A stretch of 64,000 bases of DNA from Nocardiopsis xinjiangensis YIM 90004 (GTDB lineage Bacteria > Actinomycetota > Actinomycetes > Streptosporangiales > Streptosporangiaceae), in contig NZ_ANBE01000011.1 in NCBI RefSeq assembly GCF_000341145.1, positions 102,402 to 166,401 on the forward strand. The letters run 5' to 3'. The position numbers and the translations under genes are program-made. A model generated the notes under the pieces. That model saw nothing but the letters and a program-made list of their open reading frames with translations. It had not been told where the DNA came from and ran no database searches. Below are positions 37,920 to 57,200 of this stretch, piece after piece (position 1 is the stretch's first letter; each line of letters opens with the position of its first letter).

Positions 37920-38133
37920 GACGAACGAGCTCCTTCGCGCATGGGAGTTGAACTGGGGTCGGCGTGCCCGCAGGGGTTTGGCCTTCGCGTTTCCCGCTCA
38001 GCGGGAAGGGGCACGGCGTAGCCTGCTCGCCAGATACTCTGCGTGAGAACCTGATCACCGACTACACCCTCATAGTGCTTCGCGCATCCACGATTGTCAA
38101 CACTAAAAAGTGGTATCCACCAAAACTCTCAGC

Positions 38134-38139
38134 TAGGCT
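38134..38139 (+). promoter_or_regulatory. Possible -10 box of a leaderless HTH gene
   Basis: TAGGCT lies seven bases before the ATG at 38146, placing transcription start at or near the start codon. No ribosome site precedes the ATG, which fits a leaderless transcript. A matching -35 box is not clear. Confidence 0.35.
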
Positions 38140-38145
38140 TCCCCC

Positions 38146-39006: not shown

Positions 39007-39009
39007 CCA

Positions 39010-39192
39010 TTGACTTACCTGACGTTCCGGAAGAGCAGCTACAGCGGCCACGATCAGAACTGCGTCGAGGTCGCCGACCTGCCCTGCGGCGCGGCTGTCC
39101 GGGACTCCAAGGACCCGGAAGCGGGCCACCTCCCCTTCTCCTCCTCCGAGTGGACAGCCTTCCTCACCCTCGCCCGCACCGCCCACCCGTAG
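39010..39192 (+). CDS. DUF397 small protein
   Basis: A 60-residue protein with the full DUF397 pattern: FRKSSYSGHDQNCVEVADLP, AAVRDSKDP and FSSSEWTAFL. It starts at TTG 39010, three bases after the stop of the HTH gene, so the two are coupled. In streptomycetes DUF397 proteins pair with HTH proteins of the Scr1/WhiJ type and can counteract them. Together with the HATPase gene this gives the usual three-gene set. Confidence 0.88.
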   Translation: MTYLTFRKSSYSGHDQNCVEVADLPCGAAVRDSKDPEAGHLPFSSSEWTAFLTLARTAHP

Positions 39193-39290
39193 CCCTGAAA
39201 CGACCACCTCACCCGCGGCGCCCCGCCCGCACCACCCGGGCCGGGGCGCCGGGCCGGGGCGCCGGCCCTCCGTCCGTGAGAGGCAGCATC

Positions 39291-39590
39291 GTGACCGCCA
39301 CCACTCAGGTACGCACCTATACCGTCCGGGAAGGCCTGCTCGACGAGTGGGTCCGGCGCTGGAAAGAGGAGATCGTCCCCCTGCGTCTGGAGTTCGGGTT
39401 CTCCCTCGGCGGCGCCTGGATCGACCGGGAGCGTCACCACTTCATCTGGGAGATCTCCTACGAAGGCCCCGAGACCTTCGCCGAGCGCAACCGCCAGTAC
39501 TGGGACTCCCCCAAGCGTGAGGCGATGGTGCTGGACCCCAAGGACTACCTGGTCTCCACCGACGTCCGTGAGGTCACCCGGGTCTACTGA
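39291..39590 (+). CDS. NIPSNAP family protein
   Basis: A 99-residue protein starting at GTG 39291 after AGAGG. The layout VRTYTVREGLLDEWVRRWKE, FGFSLGGAWIDRERHHFIWE and a final short helix/strand matches NIPSNAP (dimeric alpha-beta barrel, EthD-like) proteins of unknown substrate. The open frame extends upstream over the DUF397 gene, but that part is a shadow. It ends nine bases before the convergent STAND gene's stop. A decayed copy of its last about 25 codons lies at 63450-63531. Confidence 0.8.
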   Translation: MTATTQVRTYTVREGLLDEWVRRWKEEIVPLRLEFGFSLGGAWIDRERHHFIWEISYEGPETFAERNRQYWDSPKREAMVLDPKDYLVSTDVREVTRVY

Positions 39591-39599
39591 CCCCGTTCC

Positions 39600-42500
39600 T
39601 CACTCCTCGCCGACCGCGAGCAGGTGCGCGGCACGCTCTTCCGGGGTCAGGACCCGGAATGTGCGCTGCCGCGCCTCGCGGGACAGCGCTTCCAAGGGCA
39701 TGTCGGCGTCCCACACCCGCACGGTGCCGTCCACCGAACCCGAAGCAACCAGCCGTGATCCACCGTTCCAGGTGACGCTGAGGGCACGGTCACGGTGCAC
39801 TCCCACCGTGACGGGTTCACTCTCATCCCACACGTTCCAGAGCCGCACCGTGCGGTCGTGGGAAGCGGTGACGATCCTGCTGCCGTCGGGGGACCAGGCC
39901 ACCGCGGGTACCCGGCCGCTGTGCCCGGTGAGTACCCGTTCGCTCTGGCCCGTGGCCAGGTTCCATATCCGCACCGTCCAGTCGGCTGAAGAGGTGGCCA
40001 GGTGTGTCTCATCGGGAGCCCAGGTGACGGCGTCCACCCAGTTCTCGTGTCCTGTGAGCACCACACGCTCACGGCCGGTGGCCAACTCCCACACGCGTGC
40101 GGTGCGGTCGTCGGAGCAGGAGGCGATCATGCGCCCGCTGGGCGACCACGCCAAGCCCACGACCCAGTCCTGGTGTCCGCGCAGCACAGCCAGCAGAGAT
40201 CCGTCACGGGCGTCCCACACGCGAATACTCCGGTCCTGGGCGCCGGTCGCGACACGGTCACCATCGGGTGACCAAGCCACCGATTCCACAATGGCGTCCT
40301 CGTGAGTCAGTTCGGCCACGGTCTCGCCCGTCTCCAGGTTCCACAGCAGGGCCCGCCGGTCGATACCGCCCGAGACCAGAACCTTGCCGTCCGGGGACAA
40401 AGCGGCATCGCGCACGGTCCCGGTGTGGCCTCGCAGGTGCACGGGGCGGTCGGAGTCTTGTTCCCATACGCGGACGGTCCCGTCCTCGCACCCGGCCGCG
40501 ATCACGCCGTCCCGAGCGGCCACGGCGTTGACCGCCGCCCCCTGCGCTTCATGGACGACGTGCTCGACGGTCGTGGGTTCCATCTCCCACAGGCGCGCCG
40601 TGCCGTCCTCGGAACCCGTGGCCAGACGCGTGCCGTCGGGCGACCAGGCCACGCCCCAGACCGCGTCGGTGTGGCCGCGCAGAACGGTGCGTTCCTCGGC
40701 GTCGTCGGCGGTGAAGACACGGGCTGTTCGGTCGGCCGAAGCCGTGGCCAGTAGACGCCCGTCGGGTGACCATTCCACGTTCCACACGCGGTCGCGGTGC
40801 CCGCGCAGCAGAAGGAGCTGCTCTCCTGTGTCCGCGTTCCAGACCCGGACAGTGTGGTCACCCGAGGCCGTAGCGATCCGATCGCCCTCCGGGGCCCAGG
40901 AGACCCCCTCGACGAAGTCGCGGTGGCCCTCGAGTCTGACGGCCTGGCGGGCTTCGGCGAGGTCCCAGACGATGACGGTCCGGTCGTGGGAAGCGGTGGC
41001 CAAGCGCGTGCCGTCGGGCGACCAGCGGATGCCCAGGACGTTGTCGGTGTGCCCGGTCAGTTGTGTGCACAGTCGGCCGGTGTCGGCCTCCCAGACCCGG
41101 ACGACACGGTCGCGTGAGGCCGCCGCGACGTGGCGCCCGTCAGGGCGCCAGGAGACGCCCCGCACCACGTCGGTGGCGTCGGTGAAGCGCAGTAGGCTCC
41201 GGCCGGTGTCGGCGTCCCACAACCGCACGGTGTTGTCCCGGGAGGCGGTCGCCACACGTCGGGAGTCCGGTGACCAGGAGACCATCTCCACCATGCCCAT
41301 GTGGCCGTGCAATTCCCGGAGCAGCCCACCACGGGTGTCCCACAGGCGTGCGGTTCCATCTCGCGAGGCGGTGGCGATCCGCGTTCCGTCGGGTGACCAG
41401 GCCAGGTTGCGGACGGTGTCGGTGTGGCCGTTGAGAACGGCGGAGCAGTGGCTGTGGGCCAATGCGGACAACAGGGCGCCGCGGACGACCGGAACGGGTT
41501 CGCACTCCTCCAGGGCGGCCAGGGTGCGCAGGACGGCGAGCTCGGGATGCTCCTCGACACCGGCCAGAACGTACTCGGCGATCGACAGGGACACCCGGCG
41601 CAGGAACCGGTGGTCGCGGCGCCGGGATGCGTCGACGAAAGCGGTGAGCGCGGGGGTGTCCTGACCGTTCTCGCGCAGGGCCTCCAGCCAACGTTCGGCG
41701 GTGGTCAGGCGTGCGCCAGTGAGCAGGTAGTCGGGGTGGCGCCTCGAACTCTCCCAGTCGCCCGCCCAGCGCTCCAGTTCAGCTCGCTGGCGCAGGCGTT
41801 CGGTGTGCGCCTCCACCTGTTGGCGCAACGGGGCCCACTGACGGAAGAGCGCCTCGTGGGCGACCTGGGCGACGGGGCCGCCCTCGTGGAGGTCGCTGAC
41901 CAGCAGGCGGGCGTCGATGAAGGCGTCCACGACGTGGCGGTCGCGCGCGTCGAGTTCGGCCAGGCGTACTCGGCGCCGTGTGGCGTCGCCGTTGGTGACG
42001 GTGACGAAGCGCAGCAGAACCCGCAGGATGCGGTCGAGGTCGGACTCGGCGCGCAGTTCGGCGGTGACCTGGTCGGCGTGGCGTGTCAGTGCCCCCTCCA
42101 CGCCGCCGAGAGCTTGGTAGTCGGCTTCAGTGGCGATCCCGCGAGCGCCGGCTCGGATGTGGAGTTCCTGGAGAAGGTAAGCGAGTAGGGGCAAGGCGTC
42201 GCCGCTGCCGGTGTCGGCAGCGATGCGCTCGACCAAACCGTCCTCGAAACGGAAACCCGCCGTTTCGGCAGGACGTTCGATGATCTCGACGAGGTCTTGG
42301 TGGCTCAGGGCGCCCAGAGCCAGGGGGTTGGTGAACAGTTCGGCGGCCCGACCGTTGAGGAGGTCGCCGAGGAACTCCACGCGCAGTGTGGATACCACCC
42401 GCAGATGGCGATCTCCGTGCAGAGCGTCGCGCAGGGCGTTCAGGAAGAGGGTTCGGTCGTGTTCGCCGCCGAGCGTGACCAGTTCCTCCAGTTGGTCGAC

Positions 42501-43142
42501 GACCAGCACGGTACGGCGGGCCCCTCCTGCCGCGCGCAGCGCTTCCTTCAGAAGGGTCAGGAGCTCAGCACTGTCGCGTCGGATACGACGGGCGTAGGCA
42601 TCGGCCTGCGCTCGATCGTTGGCCGAAGCCAGGACCTTGGCCAGTGCCCCGACCGGGTCGGCGCCGGGCACCATGACGGGCAGCACGTTCCACCGCTGGC
42701 CCCTCAGCCGGGGAAGGATCCCGGCCTGGACGAGAGAGGACTTTCCACTGCCGGAGGCACCGATGACGGTCAGGAAGCGTTCGTGCGGGTCGGTGCCGGC
42801 ACCGTTGAGGCGGCGCATGGCCTCGGTGGTCTGGGCAGTCCGACCGAAGAAGACGGCGGCTTCGTCCTCGTGGAAGGCGGCCAGACCGGGGTAGGGCGTG
42901 CGCCCCGGCTCCCAGACGAACTCGGGAGAGGTCGGATTCTCCAAGCGGTAGGCCACGAAGTGACCGACGAGCATGATCAGGAGGATGATGACCAGGCCGG
43001 GAACAGCGGTCTGTTCCAACAGCCGGAGCGGAAGAGAAGTCTGGCGCCCGTCGGTGGCGAAGTTGGTGACCACTCCCAGTAGCCCGGCAGCCAACACGAG
43101 GAGCAGCTGCAGCATCAGGGCGAGTCGTTGGCGTCGCCGCAC
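39600..43142 (-). CDS. Membrane-anchored STAND NTPase with 14 WD40 repeats
   Basis: A 1,180-residue protein from a GTG at 43142, with GGAG at good distance. Two membrane helices lie at about 7-25 and 48-66. A STAND-type NTPase of the nSTAND1 group follows: YPGLAAFHEDEAAVFFGR, Walker A GASGSGKSS (128-136) and Walker B VLVVDQLEE (212-220). A helical region follows (to about 560). The rest is about 14 WD40 repeats (HTDTVRNLAWSPDG and variants), enough for two seven-bladed propellers. STAND proteins act as switches that oligomerise after sensing a ligand, and several are anti-phage sensors. No separate effector domain is seen, so the effector may be another protein or the membrane part. Confidence 0.88.
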   Translation of the reverse strand: MRRRQRLALMLQLLLVLAAGLLGVVTNFATDGRQTSLPLRLLEQTAVPGLVIILLIMLVGHFVAYRLENPTSPEFVWEPGRTPYPGLAAFHEDEAAVFFGRTAQTTEAMRRLNGAGTDPHERFLTVIGASGSGKSSLVQAGILPRLRGQRWNVLPVMVPGADPVGALAKVLASANDRAQADAYARRIRRDSAELLTLLKEALRAAGGARRTVLVVDQLEELVTLGGEHDRTLFLNALRDALHGDRHLRVVSTLRVEFLGDLLNGRAAELFTNPLALGALSHQDLVEIIERPAETAGFRFEDGLVERIAADTGSGDALPLLAYLLQELHIRAGARGIATEADYQALGGVEGALTRHADQVTAELRAESDLDRILRVLLRFVTVTNGDATRRRVRLAELDARDRHVVDAFIDARLLVSDLHEGGPVAQVAHEALFRQWAPLRQQVEAHTERLRQRAELERWAGDWESSRRHPDYLLTGARLTTAERWLEALRENGQDTPALTAFVDASRRRDHRFLRRVSLSIAEYVLAGVEEHPELAVLRTLAALEECEPVPVVRGALLSALAHSHCSAVLNGHTDTVRNLAWSPDGTRIATASRDGTARLWDTRGGLLRELHGHMGMVEMVSWSPDSRRVATASRDNTVRLWDADTGRSLLRFTDATDVVRGVSWRPDGRHVAAASRDRVVRVWEADTGRLCTQLTGHTDNVLGIRWSPDGTRLATASHDRTVIVWDLAEARQAVRLEGHRDFVEGVSWAPEGDRIATASGDHTVRVWNADTGEQLLLLRGHRDRVWNVEWSPDGRLLATASADRTARVFTADDAEERTVLRGHTDAVWGVAWSPDGTRLATGSEDGTARLWEMEPTTVEHVVHEAQGAAVNAVAARDGVIAAGCEDGTVRVWEQDSDRPVHLRGHTGTVRDAALSPDGKVLVSGGIDRRALLWNLETGETVAELTHEDAIVESVAWSPDGDRVATGAQDRSIRVWDARDGSLLAVLRGHQDWVVGLAWSPSGRMIASCSDDRTARVWELATGRERVVLTGHENWVDAVTWAPDETHLATSSADWTVRIWNLATGQSERVLTGHSGRVPAVAWSPDGSRIVTASHDRTVRLWNVWDESEPVTVGVHRDRALSVTWNGGSRLVASGSVDGTVRVWDADMPLEALSREARQRTFRVLTPEERAAHLLAVGEE

Positions 43143-43468
43143 ATCGTCTCCGAGGGGTCGCGTATTCCCGAGTCCGTGAGGCGTCCGCGCCCCCGGTGAG
43201 CCTACGGTGACGGGTTGTCAGGGTAAAGCCGATGTCCCCTTCCGGCCATCCGGAAAGCCCTGCGGTTCGGGCCTGCGTGTTTACGCACCTCCGTCAGAAC
43301 GCCGCCTCCGAGGCCCATTGAGGGTTCTCCAAGTGAGTCGGGTGAATCGCCCGACCCGGATAGCTCAGCTACCGCCACCCCGTCGAAGCTCCTCACCTCA
43401 GAGGCAGCGCAGCACCCTTCTTCCCCACTGGTAACGCTCGTCCCGAGCGGATGCCCAGCCCGTCGGCA
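43143..43468. other. Gene-free stretch upstream of the STAND gene
   Basis: Short open frames occur on both strands, but none has protein-like features. It should hold the promoter of the STAND gene (reading left). No strong repeat or hairpin was noticed. Confidence 0.45.
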
Positions 43469-44182
43469 TCACCACGACGCTCGCTGTCTCGACAGCTCGC
43501 TTCGGGCATCCTGTGCCCTCTGCCAGGCCTCGGGCGGCGGCTGAACAGTGACCCCCACGCCCGTCAGCATGCTCAGGTCCAGCTCCCACACCACCCTCGA
43601 TCGATGTTCCCACAACGCGAACGCGTTATCGACATGCCGCTGAGCCGCCGCCGGGGACGCTCCCGTGACCGCGATCAGGTGAGCCATCGCCTGACCCGTC
43701 ATCCCGCGTACCTGGGCGAGGCCGAAGTGCGTGACCGTGTGGCAGGGCGTGCAAACGCAGATCAACCTGCGCAGGGTCTGGATCCTGGTCCGCTCGTCGA
43801 AGGTCCACCTCTCGTGCACCTCCAACCAGCGCTTGACCTCCCGCTCGGCGCCGGCTCCGCAGATCTCGCACACCTGACCGGCGCGGTTCACGACCATGCG
43901 GCGCAATCGTTCCCAGTCCTGCTGGGACACGCACGAACGCACGTTGGTGAACCAGCACGTGGTGGGGACCAGGTCGACGAACAGCCCCGAGCCGAGCGAG
44001 CGCTCCTCCCCCGGCAGCAGGTCGGGGAGGTCGGGCCGGGCCGCCCAACGCTCCAACCCCACGAGGCCGGGCTTGGGCGCGTACCAGCGGCGTGCCTGGG
44101 GATCCCACCGTGCCCCCTCCGCCTTCGCCAGGTCCTTCTCCGCGTAGGGAACATCCAGCCAGATCCGTTCGGCAGGCACCAT
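43469..44182 (-). CDS. DUF5710 / HNH-like zinc protein
   Basis: A 237-residue protein. I chose the ATG at 44182 after GAGGAG; an ATG 11 codons earlier is possible. Residues about 5-40 form the DUF5710 domain (IWLDVPYAEKDLAKAEGARW, then a WYAP end). This small domain is common in plasmid and phage proteins that handle DNA. The middle has CEICGAGAE, LEVHERW and CVCTPCHTVTHFG, a Cys/His pattern like an HNH or zinc-binding nuclease core. It may be a DNA-acting enzyme. It precedes the STAND gene on the same strand, 326 bp away. Confidence 0.75.
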   Translation of the reverse strand: MVPAERIWLDVPYAEKDLAKAEGARWDPQARRWYAPKPGLVGLERWAARPDLPDLLPGEERSLGSGLFVDLVPTTCWFTNVRSCVSQQDWERLRRMVVNRAGQVCEICGAGAEREVKRWLEVHERWTFDERTRIQTLRRLICVCTPCHTVTHFGLAQVRGMTGQAMAHLIAVTGASPAAAQRHVDNAFALWEHRSRVVWELDLSMLTGVGVTVQPPPEAWQRAQDARSELSRQRASW

Positions 44183-44403
44183 ACTCCTCAGGTAGGGGTG
44201 TAATCGCGCAGTCACTCCAGCGAGGGCAGCGCACGGAAATCGGCCCTACCGAGTGGCCGAAACCGGCCTTCGCACACGGGCTTGCCATACTTGGCACCTG
44301 AGAGACCGCCACACGCCCCCCTCCCATGCCGACCTTGTGTCCATCCCACAGCCGCGCACTCCTTCGACACCGCCCTGGTCTGCTCATGCCGGGTTCGGTC
44401 ACC

Positions 44404-44970
44404 TCAGGCCACCAACTCCACCAGGTAACCCAACGACTCCATGTATGCCTGGGTGGTCTGCAGTGCACTCGCTGGGGGCAGGTCCATCGGATCCCAGCTG
44501 GATTCCACCAGCGAGGCGATCGCTGGTTCGAGTTCGGGGTCGTGAAGGTCCCTCTCCCGCGGAGCCCAGTCGAACCCCACCCGTGCGGTTCCGTGTTCGG
44601 TGCTGCCTGGAAGCAAGTACTCCTCGTAAGGCATCCGGCGCAATAGCCGATCGTCAGAGCTTGCCCACAACAGGTTCAGGCAGGAAGAGGGATAGAGCTG
44701 AGGCAGTTCACAGGCCACGGCGATGTCCTGGGATTCCCAGGCGACCAGGATCTCGTCGGCGCCCCCGGCGGCGGGGAGAAAGGACAGTTCCGCGATACCG
44801 CTGAGGGCGTCCTCGCCGCGGTGTACCGGCCGCAGTCGAGCGAACCCCAGCAGCTTCCCCTCGCGGAACGGGAACACGGTGGGTGGAATGACCCCACCGG
44901 CATCAGCTCCCTGGACTTCGTGGGTCTCCTTGACGAAGGCGGTCATCCTGTCCCAAAGCTGCGGTTCCAT
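44404..44970 (-). CDS. Hypothetical protein
   Basis: A 188-residue soluble protein from the ATG at 44970. The open frame continues upstream to 45204, but that part is not protein-like. It is acidic with mixed alpha/beta character: stretches IAELSFLPAAGGADEILVAW and VGFDWAPRERDLHDPELEP. No catalytic motif, signal peptide or membrane helix is seen, and I do not recognise a family. It stands between the DUF5710 gene (same strand) and the divergent CoiA-like gene. Confidence 0.6.
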   Translation of the reverse strand: MEPQLWDRMTAFVKETHEVQGADAGGVIPPTVFPFREGKLLGFARLRPVHRGEDALSGIAELSFLPAAGGADEILVAWESQDIAVACELPQLYPSSCLNLLWASSDDRLLRRMPYEEYLLPGSTEHGTARVGFDWAPRERDLHDPELEPAIASLVESSWDPMDLPPASALQTTQAYMESLGYLVELVA

Positions 44971-45227
44971 GCAGGCGGCGCTCTCTTTCCGTTCGGTGTT
45001 GAAAACGGTCCGTGACGGAAACAACCTACAGATCCCCGACGGACAACGCCCACGCCGTCCCTGTTCCCTGTGTGCACAGACGGCCTGCCTCCTACGCCTT
45101 GCTGGTCCTTGTCGGAGACGGCAGAGGCCCTGGGTGCCAGGACAAAGCATTGTCCCCGTGGTGACCGGAACCGGCCAACGGTTCGAATGCTCTATCTCCG
45201 ACACCGTGTGCCTGATAACTCTTCATC

Positions 45228-46781
45228 ATGGTGCTCGATCACAGACTCGTGCAGACGGCCGTTCTGGGAAACCGCGAGTCAGCCGATCCCGTGTATCTGC
45301 CCATGGACCGTCAAGAGGCAGAGAAGTTTCGAAGGCGACACCTTCGGTCCACCTTCTGGTGCGGTTCCCTCCTGGGAGGCTGCGGCGGACCACTCAGCCA
45401 GAAGATCTACCGGGACCGGGTCAGCCACTTCGCACACCATGCCGCCGGCAACGAGTGCACTCGAAAACACGGTGGGCTCGAGAGCGCCGACCACCTGTAC
45501 GCGAGCAAGCAGACCAACCGCTGGTTGAGCAGCCTGGGCAGCCCCGCACGGGAACCACAGTTCACCGGCGACTTCGCATCCGGCGGCACCTGTCGGAGAG
45601 TCATCCTGCCCTCCACGGACGAGCACCCGGCTATCCTCTTCGAGTTCTCTACCCGCTGCACCGAAGAGCTCGACGATCTCTACACCTGTATGCGGGACCA
45701 GTCCCCGTCCTGGCTGGTACAGGAGAACATGCAGTTCACCCGACGTCTCCTGCACGAGAACAACGTCGCCCTCCGTTTTCGGATGCGCACCAAGGGCCTG
45801 GAACGTCTCCTGGAGGTCGGCACGGTCAGCCTCGGCGGGTCGACCCGATGGGAGCCGATCGACAAGTGCACTCTCACTCCCGAGGGCATCATGACCCCGC
45901 GCATGGAGGAACTGCTCCAGGCACGGCAACAACAGGCGTCCACAACGGAAGTCCCCAGTGAAAGCTCCTCCTCGCGAGAGCCGGAACCCGAACCACACCC
46001 GCTGGTCACCAGCTTGGAAGTCTCTCTGAAACGGGGCGAATGGGCAAATATACGGCGCTTTTCCCAACAGCTCCGCGACGCACTCCGGAGCTCCAAAGAC
46101 CCAGGCATCGAAAATTTTCGTGGCAAAGCGGAGAAGTTGCTCGGATGGGCTGCACGCAAGCTCGAACACGGCAAGAGGCGGGCCGCCGGCAAGCGTGATC
46201 CCCTCCACCGGTCTCCCACTGCAAGGAGGACCACCACCGCGCTGGGCTCGACCAGGCGGTTCCCTTCAGATCGCAGCGAGGCACGGAATCGGACCTCGGC
46301 CCAGAGCAAAGCCGAGGCCAGAAGGGAAGCAGAGGCCCGAAGGGAATCCGAGACCAGAAAGAGCACGCCGCTCCAGTCACTGCAAAAAACTCCTCTGGTC
46401 ACTCTCGTCACCGATGCAGAGAAGGCCTACGACACAGGTGATCAGAGCGGGCTACGCCGGATCAGAGAGGAACTCCGTCAGCGCAGGGGCTCATTGGTCC
46501 TGGCAGACCAGCTCTTCATCGACTTGGCTCTGGAAACGCTCCCCTCTCCCGAACCTGATCAGGACGAGCAGCAAGGCGATCGGCCTCAGAACCAAGCGGC
46601 GTCCCCACAACGAGCCGGCTCGTCTCCGCCGTCGGAAGACAGCACGCTGCGAACCGCCATCAGTGAACGCCGAGAGGAACTTCGCCGCGCCCCGACCAAG
46701 AGCAAACCCGGCCCTCCGAGGGCAACCGAGCCTTCCCTGGATGAGCTCGCCGACCGGATCAACTCCCGCCGGACACGGTGA
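45228..46781 (+). CDS. CoiA-like nuclease-domain protein
   Basis: A 517-residue protein. Residues about 40-110 resemble the CoiA / competence-nuclease region: FWCGSLLGGCGGPLSQ (Cys pair), VSHFAHHAAGNECTR and ESADHLYASKQTNRWL, which keeps the E...H...K pattern. The rest is charged and helical, with a coiled-coil-like stretch of Ala/Arg/Glu repeats (about 360-385) and a low-complexity C-terminus. It lies 67 bp upstream of the RloC-like gene on the same strand, so the two probably share a transcript. CoiA-like proteins are predicted nucleases. A role as partner or regulator of the tRNase is inference. Confidence 0.65.
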   Translation: MVLDHRLVQTAVLGNRESADPVYLPMDRQEAEKFRRRHLRSTFWCGSLLGGCGGPLSQKIYRDRVSHFAHHAAGNECTRKHGGLESADHLYASKQTNRWLSSLGSPAREPQFTGDFASGGTCRRVILPSTDEHPAILFEFSTRCTEELDDLYTCMRDQSPSWLVQENMQFTRRLLHENNVALRFRMRTKGLERLLEVGTVSLGGSTRWEPIDKCTLTPEGIMTPRMEELLQARQQQASTTEVPSESSSSREPEPEPHPLVTSLEVSLKRGEWANIRRFSQQLRDALRSSKDPGIENFRGKAEKLLGWAARKLEHGKRRAAGKRDPLHRSPTARRTTTALGSTRRFPSDRSEARNRTSAQSKAEARREAEARRESETRKSTPLQSLQKTPLVTLVTDAEKAYDTGDQSGLRRIREELRQRRGSLVLADQLFIDLALETLPSPEPDQDEQQGDRPQNQAASPQRAGSSPPSEDSTLRTAISERREELRRAPTKSKPGPPRATEPSLDELADRINSRRTR

Positions 46782-46848
46782 AACCCCCACGCCTCCTGCG
46801 TTCCTCTGACACGCTGGGGTCCCCGTAACCGTCGGCGACGAGGCCCCC

Positions 46849-49188
46849 ATGATCAAACGCATCACCTACGTCAAGGACTTCCGCTGCTACCAGGGTTGGA
46901 AGCAGCACCCCCAGGCCGTCGACTTCCAGAGACTGAATGTCATCTACGCGCCGAACGGCACAGGGAAAAGCACTCTGGCCACTCTGCTCAGCGGGGTTCC
47001 GGACGATGCCGAGTGGTCACACGGGGCGAAGTTCCTCATCCAGCCCGGCGCCGAGGAGACCCAGGAGAAGGTCGACGGTCCGGGGCACTGGCTCTGGGGC
47101 GAGGTGTGCGTCTTCGGAGCCGAATACGTTCGGCGGAACCTGAGGTTCGACTCGTTGGACGCCGAGACCGGCGCACCGGCGCTGATGTACTTCGGCGAGC
47201 CGAGCATCGAACAGAAGAAGCAGCGTGAGCAGGCCCTGGAACGCATCCCGGACCTGACGAAACAGATCCAGGACCTCGAGAATCAGTACAACAAGGCCGA
47301 GAACGGCCGTGTGAAGACCCTCCGTAAGGTGGGTGCGAGCGCGGTGAACGAACTCTCCTCCTTCAACCCCCGGTTCAAGAGGGGCTTCAACGCGCGCCAC
47401 GTCGAAGCGGCACTGCATCAGCCACCCACTCCGTTGGATGAACTGACGCGGTTCGAAGAACAGGACCGGGCCTTGCTCCACGGCCGAGCGTGGAAACCGG
47501 TATCGGAGCCCACAGGCACCGGACTGACCACCCGAGACCTTCGGACACGGATCAACGATGTGCGTCAACGCACCGCGATGTCGAACGTGATCGAGGAATT
47601 GGCTGCCACCCCCTCCCGGTCCGACTGGGTACGAACGGGCCTGGCTCTGCACGACAGGGAGGACACCTGTCTGTTCTGTGATTCCGCCCTCTCGCGCTCA
47701 CGCATCAGCAGGTTGGAGGAGCACTTCGACGAGGGGTACACCCGCCTCGAATCGGAGATCACCCAACTCCACGAACGCATCGGCGAACTGCATAGCCAGA
47801 CTGAACAGCTCGGCAACGCACTGCCCCGGGAGGCTCAGTTCTTCGAAGACCTCCACGACTCCTACGAGAGCGCGGCCCGACAGGCACAGCACAACATCAA
47901 CGAGTTCCTCTCCCACCTGGGCCGACTCACCAAGAGCCTGGACGAGAAGAGGGGGGCGATGTTCCGCTCGCTCGCCCCCTTGGACGAGGACGCCGTACAC
48001 ACCCTCGACATCAGTGCCTTCGCGAGCCTCATCAATGAGCACAACAAAAGGGTCGACAACCAGGACGCCGATCGTGCTCAGGCCGCCGAGCGCCGCTTCC
48101 AGCGCATGCTGTACGACATCAGGGAGACCTGGCAGGGGTTCAGCGATGAGAAGGGCTCGCTCGACAAGCAGATCAAGACCTTCGAGATCGAACTCGCCGG
48201 ATGTCAGGACGTCTTGAAGGAGACCCCTGAACAGGGGATGAACCCCGAACACTTCCTTCCCACACTCAACGACGACATCGCGCACATGCTCCGGCGCAGG
48301 GAACTGAGTTTCGACCACGTCGACGGCCGCTACCAGGTCCTGCGCGACGGGGAGCCAGCGCAGCACCTGAGTGAGGGTGAGAAGACGGTGATCGCGCTGC
48401 TCTACTTCCTCCAGAGCCTGCACGAGCAGGGGCGCGACCTGGAGCGCACCATCGTCGTGATCGACGACCCGGTCTCCAGCCTGGACGACCACCTGATGAA
48501 GGCGGTCTACTCCACACTGAGCTCACGTCTGGAACCGGGTATCCATTGCCGCCAGCTCTTCGTGTTCACGCACAGCACGACTTTCCTCCGTTATTGGCAG
48601 GACTCTTTGACCCGGGGGAAGAATCGGGAGAGGTGGCCGGAGAACCGCACCCTGCACATCATGAAGTCAAGGCTCGAACAAGACCCGAACAACGAGAGCC
48701 GCACCGTACGGCGCCCCGTGCTGGACCCGGTCGACCTGACCGGTTCGGAGTTGAACTCCCTCGGCACCGAGTACGCCCTGGTCTTCTACCGTGCGGCGCA
48801 AGACCTGCTGGCCTCGCTCGGATCGACGTCGGTCGAGGACGATGTCCAGCTGGCCACTTCCACCCCCAACGACGCGCGCAAGATCCTCGAGCACTTCTTT
48901 CAGTTCAAGCTCCCCAAACAGGGGACCGATGTGACGGGGGCGTTGAATGAGGCGCTGAAGGGCAACACCGGGTCCGTGTCCGTCCGCCGGGAGCGGCTGA
49001 AGGCGTACGTACACAACAACTCGCACCGCAGCCCCAAGGGAGACGACTGGCAGCTGATCGACCCGGAGACCAGGGACGCGCTCACCGACGTGTTCTCCCT
49101 GATCCAGCAGATGGACCCCGACCATTTCAACGGGATGTGCACCAGGCTGGGCCTCACCGACCAAGTTTCACTGCTGACCGGACAGTGA
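46849..49188 (+). CDS. rloC: RloC-like zinc-hook anticodon nuclease
   Basis: A 779-residue ABC-type ATPase of the PrrC/RloC group. Walker A is APNGTGKST (34-42, Lys40), the signature LSEGEK is at 507-512 and Walker B VVIDDP at 536-541 with the D-loop SSLD. A central coiled coil carries a zinc hook, CLFC (Cys274, Cys277), the trait that separates RloC from PrrC. The C-terminal nuclease triad fits Arg677, Glu681 (ARKILEHF) and His726 (NNSHR). RloC cuts and excises the tRNA anticodon wobble base after DNA damage or failed DNA restriction. Here it sits between pglW and pglX, so it may guard BREX as PrrC guards a type I system. The length is normal and the gene looks active. Confidence 0.85.
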   Translation: MIKRITYVKDFRCYQGWKQHPQAVDFQRLNVIYAPNGTGKSTLATLLSGVPDDAEWSHGAKFLIQPGAEETQEKVDGPGHWLWGEVCVFGAEYVRRNLRFDSLDAETGAPALMYFGEPSIEQKKQREQALERIPDLTKQIQDLENQYNKAENGRVKTLRKVGASAVNELSSFNPRFKRGFNARHVEAALHQPPTPLDELTRFEEQDRALLHGRAWKPVSEPTGTGLTTRDLRTRINDVRQRTAMSNVIEELAATPSRSDWVRTGLALHDREDTCLFCDSALSRSRISRLEEHFDEGYTRLESEITQLHERIGELHSQTEQLGNALPREAQFFEDLHDSYESAARQAQHNINEFLSHLGRLTKSLDEKRGAMFRSLAPLDEDAVHTLDISAFASLINEHNKRVDNQDADRAQAAERRFQRMLYDIRETWQGFSDEKGSLDKQIKTFEIELAGCQDVLKETPEQGMNPEHFLPTLNDDIAHMLRRRELSFDHVDGRYQVLRDGEPAQHLSEGEKTVIALLYFLQSLHEQGRDLERTIVVIDDPVSSLDDHLMKAVYSTLSSRLEPGIHCRQLFVFTHSTTFLRYWQDSLTRGKNRERWPENRTLHIMKSRLEQDPNNESRTVRRPVLDPVDLTGSELNSLGTEYALVFYRAAQDLLASLGSTSVEDDVQLATSTPNDARKILEHFFQFKLPKQGTDVTGALNEALKGNTGSVSVRRERLKAYVHNNSHRSPKGDDWQLIDPETRDALTDVFSLIQQMDPDHFNGMCTRLGLTDQVSLLTGQ

Positions 49189-49204
49189 GTACCCATTCGG
49201 TGGC

Positions 49205-49247
49205 GTGCGGCGCTTCCCCTCCTGCAGGCGGAGGGGAAGCGCCGCAC
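49205..49247. terminator. Perfect bidirectional terminator between rloC and pglW
   Basis: An 18-bp perfect inverted repeat (49205-49222 with 49230-49247) around a 7-base loop. It begins 16 bases after the rloC stop and ends 2 bases from the pglW stop, so it serves both convergent genes. Confidence 0.85.
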
Positions 49248-49249
49248 AC

Positions 49250-52200
49250 TCACCCCACCAGCGTGGCCTCCGGGGCGGTGAAGCCCCTGGGCAGCAGTAC
49301 CTGCTCGGCGTCGGCGATGATGCCCGCGGGGCGGCCGTCCAAGGTCGCGGCGGTCTGCGGACCGCGCATGGGGCACAGCAACCACAGTCCGTACGGGGCG
49401 CGATCGGCCTCCCTCGCCTCCTGGATCAGGCGGCCCAGCAGGGCGCGGCCCGGCTCGTAGCGGGCCAGTGGGGTCGCCCCGTAGAGCACCACCACACCGC
49501 TGCCGGTAGGTGTGTCCGTGCCGGCGGCGCGCACCCGCTCGCCCAGACGCTGGAACACCTCCGCGAGAAAGGTCTCGAATTGGCGGGGCCTGGGCTGGCT
49601 GTTATCGGCCTGGGCCAGGATCTCCCAGGTCAGACCTTGTGCTTTGGACACGATGACCTCGTCGACGACTCGGACGAACTCCGTGGACACGTCGAAGGGC
49701 ACTGTGCCCGGCATCCGTGTGAGCATCTGAGCGGAGCGTTCGGTGTCGGGTAGCCACGTCTTGAGTGCCCGGTACCCGCCCCGCCGTACCGCCTGTTCCA
49801 GGCGCTGCCAGGTCTGGGAGGAAGCGGCGTCCGCTTGCCCGGGCCCGTTCTGGTGTCCGGTGTGGGTGGAGGGCTGGTAGGTGGTGAGTTCCGGCTCCAG
49901 GTACCAGCACACGGTCTCGCCCACCCGTTCCTCGCGGAGTTTGGGGTGGCGTTCCTTCAGTAGGTCGTACAGCTGCTTGCGGCTCGGCTGCGGCAGAGCG
50001 GGGAAGCGCGACCGGACCCGGTCGCGGATCTGCTCCGGGGTGATCCCGGGCCTGCCCAGGTAACCGATGGCCTGGGTGATGCGCAGGGCCCGCTCCAGGT
50101 CCAGGTCGATGGGGTAGAGCTCCAGGCGCGGGGTTGCTTCGGCCCTCTGGGACGCGGCCGCGGCGATCTGGACCAGAGCGGTGTCGGAGAAGGGCTCCAT
50201 GCCTTCGGGGGTCTCCACGGCACGCAGGGCCTTACGGACCGCGCTCGGACCGGGCAGGGCGTCGGAGCCGTCGAGCTCGACCAGGGCGTCGGCGCGCGCG
50301 CCGAGCAGTTCGGCGTAGTCGAAGAGGTCGCCTTCGACCGGAACGAGGGGGTCGTTGTCGATGACCTGGGAAACGATCACCCTTCGGGGGTAGCGGCGCA
50401 CCGCGAAGAGCTGTTCGGCCCGCCGCCCCTCGTACTCGACGACCGCGCGCACCGCGGCCAGGGCGTAGACCGAGCGTTCCTCGGTCTCCCGGGTGGAGCC
50501 GCGGGTAGCGAGGAGTTCGGAGGCGATCTGGCGGACCTCGCGCACCCGGCTGTTGCGCGCGAGGATGTCGACCACGTCAGCGCGCACCGATCCGAGCAGG
50601 GAGGCGTTCTTGCTCCAGTAGGTGTACGCCTCCCTCAGTGCCTCCTCCACCCGTTCCAGAGGCAGATCCAGGCGTCGGGCCACCTTGCGGTGGGTGGGCC
50701 ACCAGTCCAGAAGCCCCTTGCGGTCCTCGGGCAGACCGAGCAGCTCGCGCACGACCCGGACCCACCAGCGGTTGGCCTCGGTCGTGCTGGGCAGGAACTG
50801 GCGAACCACCTGGTCGACGAGGGCGTTGCGTTTGGTCTCCTCATCGGCGCCGCTGGGCAGTTTGGCCTTGGCGGGGGCCGCGTACTCGGCCACGTCCAGA
50901 TGTTTGCGCCAGTAGGAGGTGGCGCTGTGCAGCTCGTTGCGGATACTGCGGGTGCTGCCCCGCATGTGCGTGATGTCCCGGACCGGTGTGCGCAACAGCT
51001 GGCCCACCGTCTCGCAGCGCAGGATCCGTTGGGCGGTGTCCACCGCCAGCGGGGTGAGCCCGGACAAGTGCAGGGGGGTCTCCACCGTGGCGCTCTCCTG
51101 GTTGCGCCGACGGGTTTCCTCGCTCTCCGCAGGGCTCTCCGCCACGGGTTTGCTGTGGAAGGATGCTTCCCACGAGCTGCGCATGTCCGCGAGGGTGGCG
51201 AAACGCTCTTCGGTACGCCGGTGCAAGGCCCGGTGGAAGAAATCCACCATGGTCTCACGGCTCTGTTTGGGGAAGGCCTCCTCGGCCAGGCGGGGCACGA
51301 CCACGTCCTCGGCGAGGAAGTCCGTGCCGACGCCGTCCTCGTCCCAGACCGGGAGCTCACCCGTGATCATCTCGTGCAGGGTGACGGCCAGCGCGTAGCG
51401 TTCGGCGAGCTCGTCGTAGGGCCGCTCGCCTCCGAGGAAGGGATCCAAGTAACCGCTGGTGCCCGCCGAGGTGTGGCTGAGCGGGGCCTTGGACAGGGAG
51501 AAGTCGAAGAGCACCAGGCTCCGAGCTTGTTTGGGGACCTCCCGCACACCCAGGTTGGCGGGTTTGAGGTCCCGGTGCAGGATCTGCTTCTCCTGCAGGT
51601 GTTCCAAGGCCTCGAACAGGTGCCGGCCGAAGGTGTTGAGTTCGCCGCTGGTGAGTGCGCCCTCTTCCCCCAGGAAGTCGGCGAGGGTCTTCTGCCCGGC
51701 CCGCTCCAGGACCAGGACCGTGCGGCCGCCGACCTCCTCGATGCCGGCTGCGCCGTCCTTGTCCGTAGCGGCCATGGACACGATGCGCGGATGTGCGCCC
51801 ACCCTGCGCAGGGTCTCGGACTCGGTGTGCAGCGCCGCGCCCGCGGAATCGGTGTCCAAGGCGACCTTGTAGACGATCTCGCGGCCGGTGCGGGCACTGC
51901 GCATCAACAGCGCCCGGGAAGTGGCGCCCTTACCGAGAACCTTGCCGACCTCCCACCCGGGAGTGATCTCGTCGCCGGTGCGGGCCCGGAGCGGATCGGT
52001 GGTGACCTCGGGCAGCGTCAGCCGTTCCTCGACCTCGTCGAGCATGCGCAGGAACGCCCGCACGGTCGCCAAGCGTTCATGGGGGGAACGCTGGGTGGAC
52101 TCGCGTACCAGCGTGTCCAGCTGAGGCACGATGTCGTCGCTGACCGCAGCCGGGGTGAGACAGTCGTGCTCCTGGATGAGCCGGCCCAACTCGGGGCGGT

Positions 52201-53536
52201 CGCGGGCCGGCGGGCGTCCGGTGAAGACCAGATAGGTCAGGGCACCCAGACCGAACAGGTCCTGGGGCGCGGCCCGGCCGGTGTAGTCGGGAAACTCCGG
52301 GGCCAAGTAGGCGCCCGCGGCCGCCTCCACGTGGGCGTCCAGAGCACGCCCGCCCAACGCCGCCTCCAGGTGAGCGGTGGCTCCGCTGCTGGAGGCGGCC
52401 TGGGACGTACGGTTGCCGCGCAGACGCAGGCTCTCCCTGGAGGCCACCTGCCAGTCGGCGATGTACAGGCGCGGGTAGAACCCGTCCATCTCCACCCACA
52501 CACTGCTGGCAGCCAGGGCACGGTGGTAGAGCCGATTGCGGTGGGCGTGATTGACCGCCTCGGCCAGTTGGCGGACCATCACCATCCGGGTGTCGACGTC
52601 CAGGCCCTCGCCGTGTTCGGCCATGAAGTGGTCCAGGCGCTGCCAGGACTCGTGGTGGCGGAAGGCGATGGCCGGCCCGAGGTCGGCGCCGCCTTCGTCG
52701 ATGAGCCCGAAGTACTCGGCCTTGACGATGCCCTCGTGGGAGATGCCCTCCAGGGAGAGGTACTCGCGTTTGGCGGCGCGCTCCACCGAGCGGCGCTCGT
52801 CCTCCGGGGGGTTCTCGCCGTAGTGGTACAGGCGCACCCGGCTGGTTCCGCCCAACCGCTGGTGTTTGGCCTCGTAGTCGGTCCAGGTGGGGCCGCTGTC
52901 CATGGAACGCTTGCTCAGGGTGTACTCACCCAGTTGCAGCGCCCGGTCCATGGGCCTGATCCCGATGGTCTCCATGAGACGGGCCGCGTGTGTGAGGAAC
53001 CCAGGGTCGACCCGGCTGTGCGGGGCTCCGAGCAGCTTGTCCCACACCCCCGGCAAGCGGGTCTGCTGTTCCAAACCGTCCCGGCCGTAGACGTTGGCGC
53101 TCTGGACCTCGTCGAACCTGCACCGCAAGTCGGGGTCGGACAGGAAGACAGCGGCTTCGATGAAGGGCACCCGCACGTTGCGCAAACCGAGGTGCCCGAC
53201 GGCCCACCGCAAGCGGTTCTTGAGTTCCTTGGCTTTGAGGTCGGTCAGGTGCAGCGGGTTGCTGGTGGTTCTGCGTTTCCCATACCGATCGGTGAAGGTC
53301 CACTCGCTGCCCTTGTTGGCGGCCGTCCCGGGGTGGCTCTTGATCTCCACCAGATAGACGCCGGTAGGGGTGACCATGAGCAGGTCGCACTCGCGGATGC
53401 GCCCGCTGCGCGCGGTGAAGGTGAAGCCCGCCCAGGCACGATAGTTGCCGCGATCGGGGAACTGTTCGCGGATGTGTTCCAGGGCGGCCTGTTCCCAGGG
53501 GAATTCCGAGGGCTTTCCCCACCACCTGTTCGACAT
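49250..53536 (-). CDS. pglW: BREX-2 serine/threonine kinase PglW
   Basis: A 1,428-residue kinase. The ATG at 53536 follows GGGAG at seven bases. Residues about 1-150 form a NERD domain (GVYLVEIKSHPG, about 60-71). A degenerate kinase-like segment follows (about 250-490, LYHRALAASSVWV). The active kinase is at about 525-790: LGKGATSRALL, VYKVAL, HRDLKPANLG (about 652) and FDFSLSK in place of DFG. The C-terminal part is helical. PglW phosphorylates itself and is needed for Pgl phage resistance in S. coelicolor. It lies 12.6 kb from pglX on the same strand, with other defence genes between them. It must have its own promoter. Confidence 0.93.
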   Translation of the reverse strand: MSNRWWGKPSEFPWEQAALEHIREQFPDRGNYRAWAGFTFTARSGRIRECDLLMVTPTGVYLVEIKSHPGTAANKGSEWTFTDRYGKRRTTSNPLHLTDLKAKELKNRLRWAVGHLGLRNVRVPFIEAAVFLSDPDLRCRFDEVQSANVYGRDGLEQQTRLPGVWDKLLGAPHSRVDPGFLTHAARLMETIGIRPMDRALQLGEYTLSKRSMDSGPTWTDYEAKHQRLGGTSRVRLYHYGENPPEDERRSVERAAKREYLSLEGISHEGIVKAEYFGLIDEGGADLGPAIAFRHHESWQRLDHFMAEHGEGLDVDTRMVMVRQLAEAVNHAHRNRLYHRALAASSVWVEMDGFYPRLYIADWQVASRESLRLRGNRTSQAASSSGATAHLEAALGGRALDAHVEAAAGAYLAPEFPDYTGRAAPQDLFGLGALTYLVFTGRPPARDRPELGRLIQEHDCLTPAAVSDDIVPQLDTLVRESTQRSPHERLATVRAFLRMLDEVEERLTLPEVTTDPLRARTGDEITPGWEVGKVLGKGATSRALLMRSARTGREIVYKVALDTDSAGAALHTESETLRRVGAHPRIVSMAATDKDGAAGIEEVGGRTVLVLERAGQKTLADFLGEEGALTSGELNTFGRHLFEALEHLQEKQILHRDLKPANLGVREVPKQARSLVLFDFSLSKAPLSHTSAGTSGYLDPFLGGERPYDELAERYALAVTLHEMITGELPVWDEDGVGTDFLAEDVVVPRLAEEAFPKQSRETMVDFFHRALHRRTEERFATLADMRSSWEASFHSKPVAESPAESEETRRRNQESATVETPLHLSGLTPLAVDTAQRILRCETVGQLLRTPVRDITHMRGSTRSIRNELHSATSYWRKHLDVAEYAAPAKAKLPSGADEETKRNALVDQVVRQFLPSTTEANRWWVRVVRELLGLPEDRKGLLDWWPTHRKVARRLDLPLERVEEALREAYTYWSKNASLLGSVRADVVDILARNSRVREVRQIASELLATRGSTRETEERSVYALAAVRAVVEYEGRRAEQLFAVRRYPRRVIVSQVIDNDPLVPVEGDLFDYAELLGARADALVELDGSDALPGPSAVRKALRAVETPEGMEPFSDTALVQIAAAASQRAEATPRLELYPIDLDLERALRITQAIGYLGRPGITPEQIRDRVRSRFPALPQPSRKQLYDLLKERHPKLREERVGETVCWYLEPELTTYQPSTHTGHQNGPGQADAASSQTWQRLEQAVRRGGYRALKTWLPDTERSAQMLTRMPGTVPFDVSTEFVRVVDEVIVSKAQGLTWEILAQADNSQPRPRQFETFLAEVFQRLGERVRAAGTDTPTGSGVVVLYGATPLARYEPGRALLGRLIQEAREADRAPYGLWLLCPMRGPQTAATLDGRPAGIIADAEQVLLPRGFTAPEATLVG

Positions 53537-54258
53537 CCGAGGGCTCCCTGTCCGGTTCTGTAACGCGCGAGTGCCCGCCCAGCATAGGGGGAAGCGACGA
53601 CGGACGACCGCGCTGTGGGGCCAGGAGGGGTCTCGATTCGGCCCCGGACGGGGGTCGTTCTCGCCTGCTCTGGATGACTGGCCGTCCCGTTCCCCAAGCC
53701 GCCTCGGTGAAAGTACGCCCGGACTGTGGTCTGGGGAGACGCTCCCCAATGGGGCCGCCCCGATGACCACGGACGCGGGAAGCAGTATGACGTGTCCCGA
53801 TGCTCTCCCCCACCATCGACATCAGGATGCATCCCGGCTTCCCGAGGCCCGCCCACGTGAACCGGACGATGCACACGTCCGAGTGCAGCTTTTGCAGGGA
53901 GTTCTGTCGTTCCCGGTCCTTGGCCAGCGCACACGGGGTGCTGTGCAGCTCGGGCCCGTCCGCCTCCCCGGTGAGACGGCCGGTCAGAAGGCCCGGGGGC
54001 CTGCTCCCGCGAGAGCGCCGAGGGTGATCTGCGTCATGGATATGCGCGCTGAGGCTCAGCTGTGACCGACCCGCCACGCATCGTTCCTGGTCAAGGCAAG
54101 ACCCGGCATAGGACGCGGAAATCGGCCGGATGGGTGGTGTTTCCCCCGGATGGGCGGTGTTGCGGGCGTATCGGTATAACTCACGGGTAGCACCTTTTTT
54201 GTTCTCCCCCCGCGCGCCCCCACACGCGTGGCACGACCCCTCTGCGGAGCCCTCAACC
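53537..54258. other. Gene-free divergent region between pglW and the toxin gene
   Basis: No protein-like frame on either strand. It must hold the promoters of pglW (left) and of the toxin operon (right). A near-exact doubled stretch, GGATGGGTGGTGTT and GGATGGGCGGTGTT, lies about 22 bases apart (near 54128 and 54149). TATAAC at 54175-54180 is a possible -10 box for the toxin gene, 79 bases before its start. Confidence 0.45.
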
Positions 54259-57200
54259 GTGAGTGACCATCCCGGCGGCCCCACCCGACTGCCCGAACCC
54301 AAGCCCTTCGGTGAGCAACCAGAATCACTGACCAACAGCGATGAGGTGATCAGCCCGGTCGGGATCGCCGAGGTCGCCCCCAAAGGCGACCCGGAGAGCA
54401 TCGAGGCCCTGGCCGGGGACCTGCGCACCCACGGGGCCACGGTCAGCGAGGCCGGCTATGACATCAAGTCTTCCTGGGGCGGGCTCACCAACGCCTACAA
54501 GGCCCCCGACCACGAGGACGCCCTGTACGCGGCCATGGACACCGTGGCCGCAGATGGCGATGACGTCGAAACGGGCACTGAGCGGGCCGCCTCGGCTTTG
54601 GAGACCTTCGCCGGTGAGATGGCCAGCATCCAGCGCCGCTTCTCCACCCTGTACGACGACGCCGTCGATTTCCGCGACCGTATCGACGACGACGAGGACT
54701 GGCGCGACGGCGGGCTCTTGGGCGGCGAGAGCGAGGAAGTGGAGGAGAACAAAACGCTCATCCGGCGCGGTATCGCGTTGCTGACCGAGTACGCCGAGGC
54801 CGAGGTGGCCTGCGCCAACGCCATCACCAACGGCGTGCCGAACAGTACCGAGTTCTCCTCCAGGCCCCAGGGCGCCGATGAGGGCGCCCTGGAGGAGGAC
54901 GTCTTCTACCACGGCTACGACGGTACGGCCGAGGAACTGATGGCCGAGTGGGGTGTGGTCGGGGCCGATACCGACCACAACTGGGCGGTGGATTCCCTGG
55001 CGGCCGGGTGGGACCACACGGTCGGTTTCGTGGAGGACGTGGGCGGGGCCGTTGGCCTGCACAGCTCCGAGGGCTGGTTCAGCACTTCCTGGTCGGATGC
55101 CTTCACTGAGTACCACGGCGACAACCTCAAGGAGCTGGCCGGCCTGGTGGGTCTCTACGACCGCGACAGCGACAGTTTCGGGTGGGCCGGCTGGGACTCG
55201 GTGGGTGAGAGTTGGAAGGAGCTGGCGCACTCGGTGGTGCCCTGGACCGAGTGGGAGGACCGGCCGGGCTATGTGATCACCACCGCCGTGCTCAACACCG
55301 TGGGTGTGGTGGGTGGTGCGGCGCTGACCGCGACGGGCGTGGGCGCGGTGGTGGGTGTGCCGCTGATGGCTTGGCGCGGGGCTTCCATGCTCAACGGTAT
55401 GGGCTCCGGTCCCGCTGCCGGCGGGATGGACGGCGGCGGTGGCGCCGATGTGGATGCGGGCTCCGGTTCACCTGCGGGCGGTATCCCCGCCGGGGGCGGC
55501 GGCGGGTCGGTGCCGACGACGGTGGATCCTGCGGGGTTCCAGGCGCCGGAGGCCTTCTCCCCGGGTGATCTGCCGGACTCGTTCAGCTTCCCGGGCGAGG
55601 GCGGCCCCGGCGGGGGCGAACATGGTGGTTCAGGCACGGGTGCGGGTGGCAGCGAGGGCGGTGTGCCCCGCGCTCCGATCTCCCCGGCGAGTGAGGCTCC
55701 GGAGGGCCAGCGTTCCGGACGCGGCGGATCCTCGGCTGGGTCGGGGCGCACGGACCAGCAGACGCCGGAACGGCGGCCCGTGCCGTCCCCGGTCGCCGAC
55801 GTGGAGCCCCCGGCCGAGAACACGGGCGGGGCGGACCGTTCCGGTCAGGACACCGGTCCCGGCCCGGTAGAGGAAACGTCGGGGCGTGAGACGCAGGGTT
55901 CGGACGGGCGCGACACCGGCTCGGAACAGCCCGCCTCGGGCAACCGGTGGGGCGTCAACGAGGACACGAACACCGGCTCCGAGAACACGCGCTCCGACGA
56001 GAGCTCTGAGAGTTCCGAGACCGCTCGGGACGTCGACACAGCGGACGCCTACGGCGACCGCTGGGGCCACACCGAACAGGCCGGGCGCGAAGACACCAGT
56101 TCCGAGTCCTCGACGCAGTCGCCGGCACAGTCGCCTTCGCAGACGCCCGAGCCCACCCGCGCCGACGTGGCCGAGGCCGACCGTCCCGACGGCGACAACA
56201 ACCGTTCCGACCGGATGGATGAGGACCAGCAGGGCCGCAACGACCGTAACGACCGGAGCCAGGAGGACTCCGACGCGCTGCTGCGTGAGAGCGCGGACGG
56301 CCAACGCGTCCGCTCCGATGGTGGCCCCTCCACCCACCCGGACGCCTCCGAGGTCATCCGCGCCGGTGACCCGAGGCTGCCTGAGCAGGTGCGCGAGGAC
56401 CATCCGGCCGCCCACTTGAAGGAGGGCCAGGACCTCCTTCAGGAGCTCGAAGCGGCCTTCCAGCGCGACTCCGCACGGGACGTGGGCAGCCAGAGCGATG
56501 GGTTCAAGCAGTTCCTGGACCGGGAGAACGCGCCCTACGAGCAGTTCGTCGAGGACAACCGGGACACGCTCGAGTCGATGCGCTCCAGGGCCGAGCAGGA
56601 TCCGGGGTGGAAGGCCCAATCCCTGGCCGAGACCCCGGCCCCGCGCAGCGGATGGGAACACGCCCAGCGCCAGGACGGCGACCACGGGGACTACGGCGAG
56701 GGCAGTGGCGCGAACAGTGGGCGCAGCTCCGACCCGCGCTTCGACGGGCCCGACCGGAGCCCGGAGCCGGCCACTGTAGGGGCGATGCTGAAAGCGGCTG
56801 CGACGGCCGCGTTCAGATTGGACAGCAGCGGGCGCGGCGTCGAGGGAGCGCGCGCCGAACGCGGGCCCTCGGGTGAGGGTTCGCGCCGCGACCAGCGCGA
56901 CGGCGGCCGGGACCGGCCGCAGAGCCACGATCGCTGGTCCACCGACCGAGGGAGCGGGCGTTCCCCGGACTTGCACGATCGCGGCCCCCAGACCCGTAAC
57001 GAGGACGGCCCCGCAGGCCGCAACCCGGACACGCCGGACTCCGGCCGCAGCGGTGACGGCGATAGGAGCGACACGTCGGGGCACCGCGACGGCCCCACCG
57101 ACCGCACCTCCGGGGAAGGCTCGCGAGGCGGTGGCGGCAAACCACCCGTCACACCCACGGGCGGCCCCGAGGGACCCGACTCCGGCAACGGCAAGAGCGA

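Follow-up and report, generated by a model that had tools for sequence, protein, structure and literature searches.

An RloC-type putative tRNase in the variable cargo slot of BREX-2 loci in Nocardiopsis

The locus analysed here makes concrete the question of how immunity is coupled to suicide: would an RloC-type nuclease encoded beside a BREX-2 system fire upon loss or inhibition of BREX-2, or upon DNA breaks alone? The tRNase PrrC is silenced by a restriction-modification (R-M) protein and freed by phage Stp (PMC2610378), while RloC is rarely linked to R-M and has an internal ATPase switch that responds to DNA breaks. An earlier note on the window (i.e., the whole stretch of 64,000 nucleotides that was analysed) had favoured a guard modelled on PrrC. 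A guard of this kind, if real, would account for the continued arrest of BREX-blocking phages; if false, the locus would be a further example of layered defence cargo. Herein we describe a genus-wide case of an RloC-type putative tRNase that is confined to BREX-2 loci, has been repeatedly exchanged between them, and is intact only where BREX-2 is complete.

The reading frame at 46849-49188 is intact, with a coding-type GC content by codon position (0.63/0.40/0.85). Residues 11-750 of its product align with Pfam AAA_13 (E = 7.5e-98) and residues 1-764 with PADLOC PDC-S06 (E = 2e-122), the latter being a family of "candidate" status that also takes in a Streptococcus prophage protein annotated as "translation-disabling ACNase RloC". 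The PADLOC PrrC model matches the protein over ATPase residues 532-587 only. The gene and its conserved motifs are as follows:

46849-49188, plus strand: rloC, RloC-type ABC-ATPase with zinc hook and putative anticodon nuclease (779 aa, ATG start)
46948-46974, plus strand: Walker A, APNGTGKST, residues 34-42 (invariant in 7 orthologues, partly conserved in distant relatives)
47668-47679, plus strand: zinc hook CLFC (Cys274, Cys277), apex of the coiled coil (neither Cys varies among 12 relatives)
48367-48381, plus strand: ABC signature LSEGE, residues 507-511 (from the orthologue and distant-relative alignments)
48451-48489, plus strand: Walker B / D-loop IVVIDDPVSSLDD, residues 535-547 (from the same two alignments)
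48877-48891, plus strand: Arg677-x3-Glu681, putative nuclease triad (R677 invariant, E681 at least 90% conserved in 12 relatives)
49024-49026, plus strand: His726, putative nuclease triad, following Ser725 (at least 90% conserved in 12 relatives)

Conservation was read from two alignments, one of 7 Nocardiopsis RloCs with 44-60% identity to the window protein and one of 12 sequences from Actinomycetota, Pseudomonadota and a Streptococcus phage, with identity down to 19-26%. The zinc-hook and triad residues named in the earlier note (Cys274/Cys277, Arg677, Glu681 and His726) all lie at the positions claimed and are invariant in the 7 orthologues; across the 12 sequences C274, C277 and R677 never vary, and conservation of N674, E681 and H726 is at least 90%, which exceeds chance. 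The ABC/Rad50-like ATPase motifs (Walker A, signature, Walker B/D-loop and His switch) are likewise invariant in the orthologues and largely conserved farther out. The published definition of RloC asks for R-x3-E-x36-52-(S)H, a CX2C insert and a length of 658-897 aa (PMC2610378). The window protein has R677-x3-E681-x44-S725-H726, a C274/C277 insert that splits the ATPase, and 779 aa, as in the RloCs of Geobacillus kaustophilus and Acinetobacter baylyi, and like these it lies outside an R-M operon, as is usual for RloC (PMC2610378, PMC3874168). Its assignment to the RloC family is thus borne out by AAA_13, PDC-S06 and the motifs. Unlike the known RloCs, it belongs to an Actinomycete clade that shares 19-27% identity with relatives beyond the genus, it sits at BREX-2, and its tRNA target is putative: the family is characterized by tRNA anticodon cleavage with excision of the wobble nucleotide, responsive to zinc and DNA, and the window protein is in this respect a putative tRNase. 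Most of the orthologues apparently start with TTG or GTG, and atypical starts were read by the RloC authors as a sign of low expression (PMC2610378).

BREX-2 is complete in the window, with brxHI, brxD, pglZ, pglY, pglX and pglW all on the minus strand. The pglX-pglW gap measures 12.4 kb and contains ~8 predicted genes besides rloC (HATPase, DUF5753 HTH, STAND-WD40 and DUF5710 genes, and several without family matches):

22385-24559, minus strand: brxHI helicase (PADLOC BrxHI, 1031 bits)
24556-25887, minus strand: brxD (PADLOC BrxD, 663 bits)
25884-28880, minus strand: pglZ (PADLOC PglZ, residues 357-1313 of the long ORF 25884-29837)
28865-32734, minus strand: pglY / BrxC-type ATPase (PADLOC BrxC-PglY, 1289 bits)
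32960-36841, minus strand: pglX, adenine methyltransferase (PADLOC PglX, 1590 bits; Eco57I, DUF7008)
36842-49249, no strand: variable cargo slot from pglX to pglW, with rloC and other genes (synteny of 12 Nocardiopsis loci)
37320-37919, minus strand: HATPase gene
38146-39006, plus strand: DUF5753 HTH gene
39600-43142, minus strand: nSTAND1-WD40 protein, a cargo gene of the slot (family search and slot comparison)
45228-46781, plus strand: 517-aa gene, 67 bp upstream of rloC, without family match
49250-53770, minus strand: pglW, with NERD and two kinase domains (NCBIfam BREX_PglW, 1605 bits against a cut-off of 990)

The true start of pglZ is probably near 28.87 kb, as the long ORF overlaps pglY. 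The HATPase and DUF5753 HTH genes flank pglX in all 12 island-type loci described below, although one of them (G116) lacks pglX. rloC and pglW converge, ~60 bp apart, so that rloC lies outside the pgl transcription unit. Its placement between pglW and pglX, as first described, is right but loosely put, given the width of the gap, the other genes in it and the opposite strand of rloC. The 517-aa gene was considered as a partner of rloC and rejected, since it does not cluster with genes of other rloC loci; by eye, the N-terminal Cys/His pattern of its product resembles a CoiA-type zinc motif. Other Nocardiopsis BREX-2 loci repeatedly have relatives of the nSTAND1-WD40 protein (up to 85% identity) in this slot, some of them truncated.

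The earlier note knew of no described BREX-RloC link of this kind. Anantharaman et al. had, however, described RloC-family HEPN genes inside Pgl operons, "in a few instances", in 2013 and proposed a suicide or RNA-cleavage back-up (PMC3710099), and a 2026 survey describes backup suicidal nucleases across BREX types, including HEPN RNases and PARIS/Gabija-type modules (PMC12839542); the claim is therefore incorrect. The window gene resembles those of 2013 in sitting in a locus of core Pgl genes, but theirs belong to a large predicted operon with PglZ, PglY, PglX and others such as a Lon-type ATPase, whereas here the locus is BREX-2 with pglW and rloC occupies a variable slot on the opposite strand. 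With the nucleases of the 2026 survey, among them HEPN RNases and OLD/TOPRIM (PARIS, Gabija) modules, it shares the place of a nuclease effector beside or inside the BREX core; the passages of that survey consulted name neither RloC nor a zinc-hook ABC-HEPN protein. Our analysis adds how RloC is distributed across the genus, its exchange between loci and the pattern of gene integrity.

We surveyed 40 Nocardiopsis genomes, some of them fragmented assemblies, and found PglW above the cut-off in 15, with 12 island-type and 3 compact loci. RloC is present at 8 of the 12 island-type loci (7 intact copies and one pseudogene, in G116) and at none of the 3 compact ones. Seven of these RloCs lie on the pglW contig within 12 kb of pglW, and that of G116 is on a different contig, which opens with genes that continue the island order. 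Elsewhere in the genus the only trace is a frameshifted fragment in G201, so that RloC is confined to genomes with present or past BREX-2, this one fragment excepted. RloC-bearing genomes thus make up 8 of the 15 PglW-positive and 1 of the 25 PglW-negative ones, the latter being the degraded fragment (Fisher p = 6e-4); this test ignores phylogeny and overstates the evidence, because the genomes are related. In a sample of 201 genomes of the order, all 7 RloC-bearing Nocardiopsis genomes were among the 51 with PglW above the cut-off. Every intact rloC runs opposite to the pgl genes; six lie downstream of pglW and one (G065) upstream, outside the pglW-pglX interval. The pglW of one genome (G070, L062) is split between two frames, which may mean that its BREX-2 locus is either broken or wrongly assembled.

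The co-occurrence of RloC and BREX-2 that had been suggested for checking therefore holds within Nocardiopsis, but not in the BREX-2 loci sampled beyond it. We looked at 40 further BREX-2 loci (32 from the order sample and 8 from the phylum sample), mostly with ~18 kb on either side of pglW, although some were cut by contig ends or one-sided, and found no RloC within the fetched region of any, even at E < 1e-3. The pglW-pglX distance is below 300 bp in 22 of the 33 outside loci where pglX was found; in other genera, the gap widens to between 6.6 and 10.1 kb in near relatives of the island type, again without RloC. RloC-like proteins occurred in three of the 395 other genomes of the phylum sample, and none of these three has PglW. 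Taken together, the outside loci without RloC and the RloC-like proteins without PglW make RloC at BREX-2 a feature of Nocardiopsis rather than of BREX-2 in general, and the idea that any BREX-2 attracts RloC was rejected on 0 of 40 outside loci. Plasmid-borne relatives are standalone and away from BREX. A search of genome contigs with the protein directly gave no match, and an alignment-based scan of them gave mainly Nocardiopsis matches; no relatives were found in viral contigs, and phage records gave partial, weak matches only, with four annotated as ACNase, in Streptococcus prophages.

The best reading of these data, to which we would give about an even chance, is that RloC is an independent, second-line abortive tRNase in a variable slot beside a complete BREX-2. 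The protein is of the RloC family: its Rad50-like ABC ATPase, which bears the zinc-hook coiled coil, is fused to a putative anticodon-nuclease domain at the C-terminus, and the nuclease is most likely restrained by the protein's own ATPase/zinc-hook switch. Broken or massively degraded DNA in an infected cell would turn it on, and active RloC would cut host tRNA in the anticodon loop and stop translation. BREX-2 would then be the first line and RloC a back-up, alongside the Gabija, Mokosh, AbiE-like or STAND genes of sister strains. Both the tRNA cleavage and the internal DNA-break switch we infer from published RloC work, in which experimental RloCs are self-switched and activated by double-strand breaks without R-M, that of A. 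baylyi responding to DNA breaks in R-M-deficient hosts (PMC3874168). The functional complementarity of RloC and BREX-2 we infer from the present analysis.

Among the alternatives, the one that survives best, though we consider it distinctly less probable, is that RloC is a plain passenger, i.e., one of the many defence genes taken up as cargo by an integration hotspot between pglW and pglX, without a functional tie to BREX-2. In other genomes (L042-L067) the cargo includes a Gabija pair downstream of pglW (G019, G067, G205 and G048), Mokosh (G116), AbiEi-like genes (G065, G088 and G070), NB-ARC/TPR or STAND-WD40 proteins, a caspase-domain protein (one genome) and ThiF/E1-E2-like genes (three). 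With so many unrelated defence genes, among them Gabija, Mokosh, AbiE-like and STAND genes, the slot is a cargo hotspot. Gabija, which we used as a control, occurs in 8 genomes, 5 times at or beside BREX-2 and 3 times in BREX-negative genomes, and its linkage to BREX-2 does not differ significantly from that of RloC (Fisher p = 0.12 to 0.24). The enrichment of rloC at BREX-2 within Nocardiopsis is real; since Gabija is found at the same loci nearly as often (5/8), RloC may still be a plain passenger. The four island-type loci that lack RloC, the standalone plasmid relatives, and the wide gaps of other genera, some of which hold non-defence genes (a biotin carboxylase/carboxyl-transferase protein and an M20 peptidase), fit this reading as well. 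Against it, intact RloC of the Nocardiopsis clade is found nowhere else in the 40 genomes, whereas Gabija also occurs in three BREX-negative ones, and all five divergent RloC lineages, 44-60% identical among themselves, sit at BREX-2, where one of them flanks pglW on its opposite side. Gabija was also considered as an obligate partner of RloC and rejected, as it lies near rloC in only 4 of 8 loci.

The second alternative is the PrrC-like guard, in which BREX-2 proteins would silence RloC and phage inhibition of BREX-2 would free tRNA cleavage; we consider it unlikely. PrrC is its precedent (PMC2610378): like the window protein, PrrC combines an ABC ATPase with a triad-type anticodon nuclease (putative here) and sits within a DNA-modification defence locus, EcoprrI. 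PrrC is, however, half the size, has no zinc hook and is invariably linked to, and embedded in, a type Ic R-M locus (PMC2610378), whereas at no locus was rloC found within the transcription unit of the pgl genes. In published work, RloC depends on no R-M protein for either silencing or activation (PMC3874168). Moreover, RloC lineages do not co-evolve with PglW but have been swapped between its lineages. G065 and G116 have PglWs that are 95% identical and RloCs that are 53% identical, and holding the two RloCs together was rejected (p-AU 5e-11); conversely, G067 and G019 share RloCs at 92% and PglWs at 76% identity, and the trio formed by the RloCs of G019, G205 and G067 (89-92% identical) was rejected on the PglW tree (p-AU 2e-33). 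Since the RloC and PglW trees conflict, RloC has been repeatedly exchanged or recruited, and simple vertical co-inheritance with BREX-2 was rejected; such swapping would fit a mobile, self-contained module. Four island-type BREX-2 loci do without RloC, which also speaks against a guard. The constant linkage expected of a guard gives a mixed picture: in Nocardiopsis 7 of 7 intact copies accompany a complete BREX-2, but relatives elsewhere are standalone. The independent second-line effector is better supported than the guard because published RloC is self-switched, rloC lies on the opposite strand and its lineages are swapped.

The guard proposed in the earlier note is thus not supported, but one pattern keeps the idea alive. 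All 7 intact RloCs are accompanied by all six BREX-2 genes, although brxD of G205 matches in two frames and may be broken or misassembled, and the 2 degraded copies are found only where BREX-2 is gutted or absent. In G116 (C29:2397-4517, L048) two stops interrupt RloC, whose first ~66 residues, with Walker A among them, are gone; pglW is kept there, and pglX and pglY were looked for and not found. This RloC is degraded though the Mokosh gene product MkoA of the same genome is full length. In G201, where BREX-2 is absent, RloC is a frameshifted fragment (C1, L068:14538-15333). The association between intact or degraded RloC and complete or lost BREX-2 has a nominal probability of 0.028, with two degraded cases and the pattern noticed post hoc; it is a lead and not a result, and may reflect general island decay. 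The restriction of intact rloC to genomes with complete BREX-2 nevertheless hints at a closer dependence than simple layering. Such a dependence would make the Nocardiopsis RloC a guard or a BREX-addicted toxin, tolerated or useful only with all BREX-2 proteins and decaying when BREX-2 is lost, a reading that we likewise regard as improbable; if true, BREX would be guarded by a self-contained zinc-hook tRNase. Beside the RloC fragment of G201 there is a three-gene cluster (L068:10219-14136; 454, 226 and 663 aa) that resembles an ABC three-component or Lamassu-like system, the 663-aa protein having, by eye, a P-loop and a CXXC motif.

Against the independent second-line tRNase stand weak fold models. 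The full-length model (pLDDT 58), too poor for a fold search, has long helices on either side of C274/C277, at low confidence, and the C-terminal 210 residues, modelled separately, are mostly helical (pLDDT 71). Compared with the PDB by Foldseek, this C-terminal model had no significant hit, and HEPN toxins came up at E ~2 and a probability of ~0.2; a HEPN fold is thus not claimed from structure; the assignment rests on the literature, in which the RloC domain is classed as an active HEPN RNase (Anantharaman et al., PMC3710099). That the protein is an RloC look-alike, its C-terminal domain having another RNA target, being a DNA nuclease or being inactive, would agree with this search, with solved relatives that by sequence are weak AriA ATPase matches alone, with the candidate status of PDC-S06 and with the low identity (~20-27%) that the protein shares with annotated relatives beyond the genus, but is very unlikely given a triad that is strongly conserved at the published RloC spacing and the HEPN RNase classification.

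On the far side of pglW, the stretch at 54130-63212 encodes a 1399-aa protein (54130-58329) that has a low-complexity middle and matches no family; three Imm49-family immunity genes come next, of which those at 58338-60206 and 61329-63212 have two matched stretches each and that at 60272-61243 has one; from its gene content, this stretch beside the defence locus looks like a polymorphic-toxin/immunity cluster.
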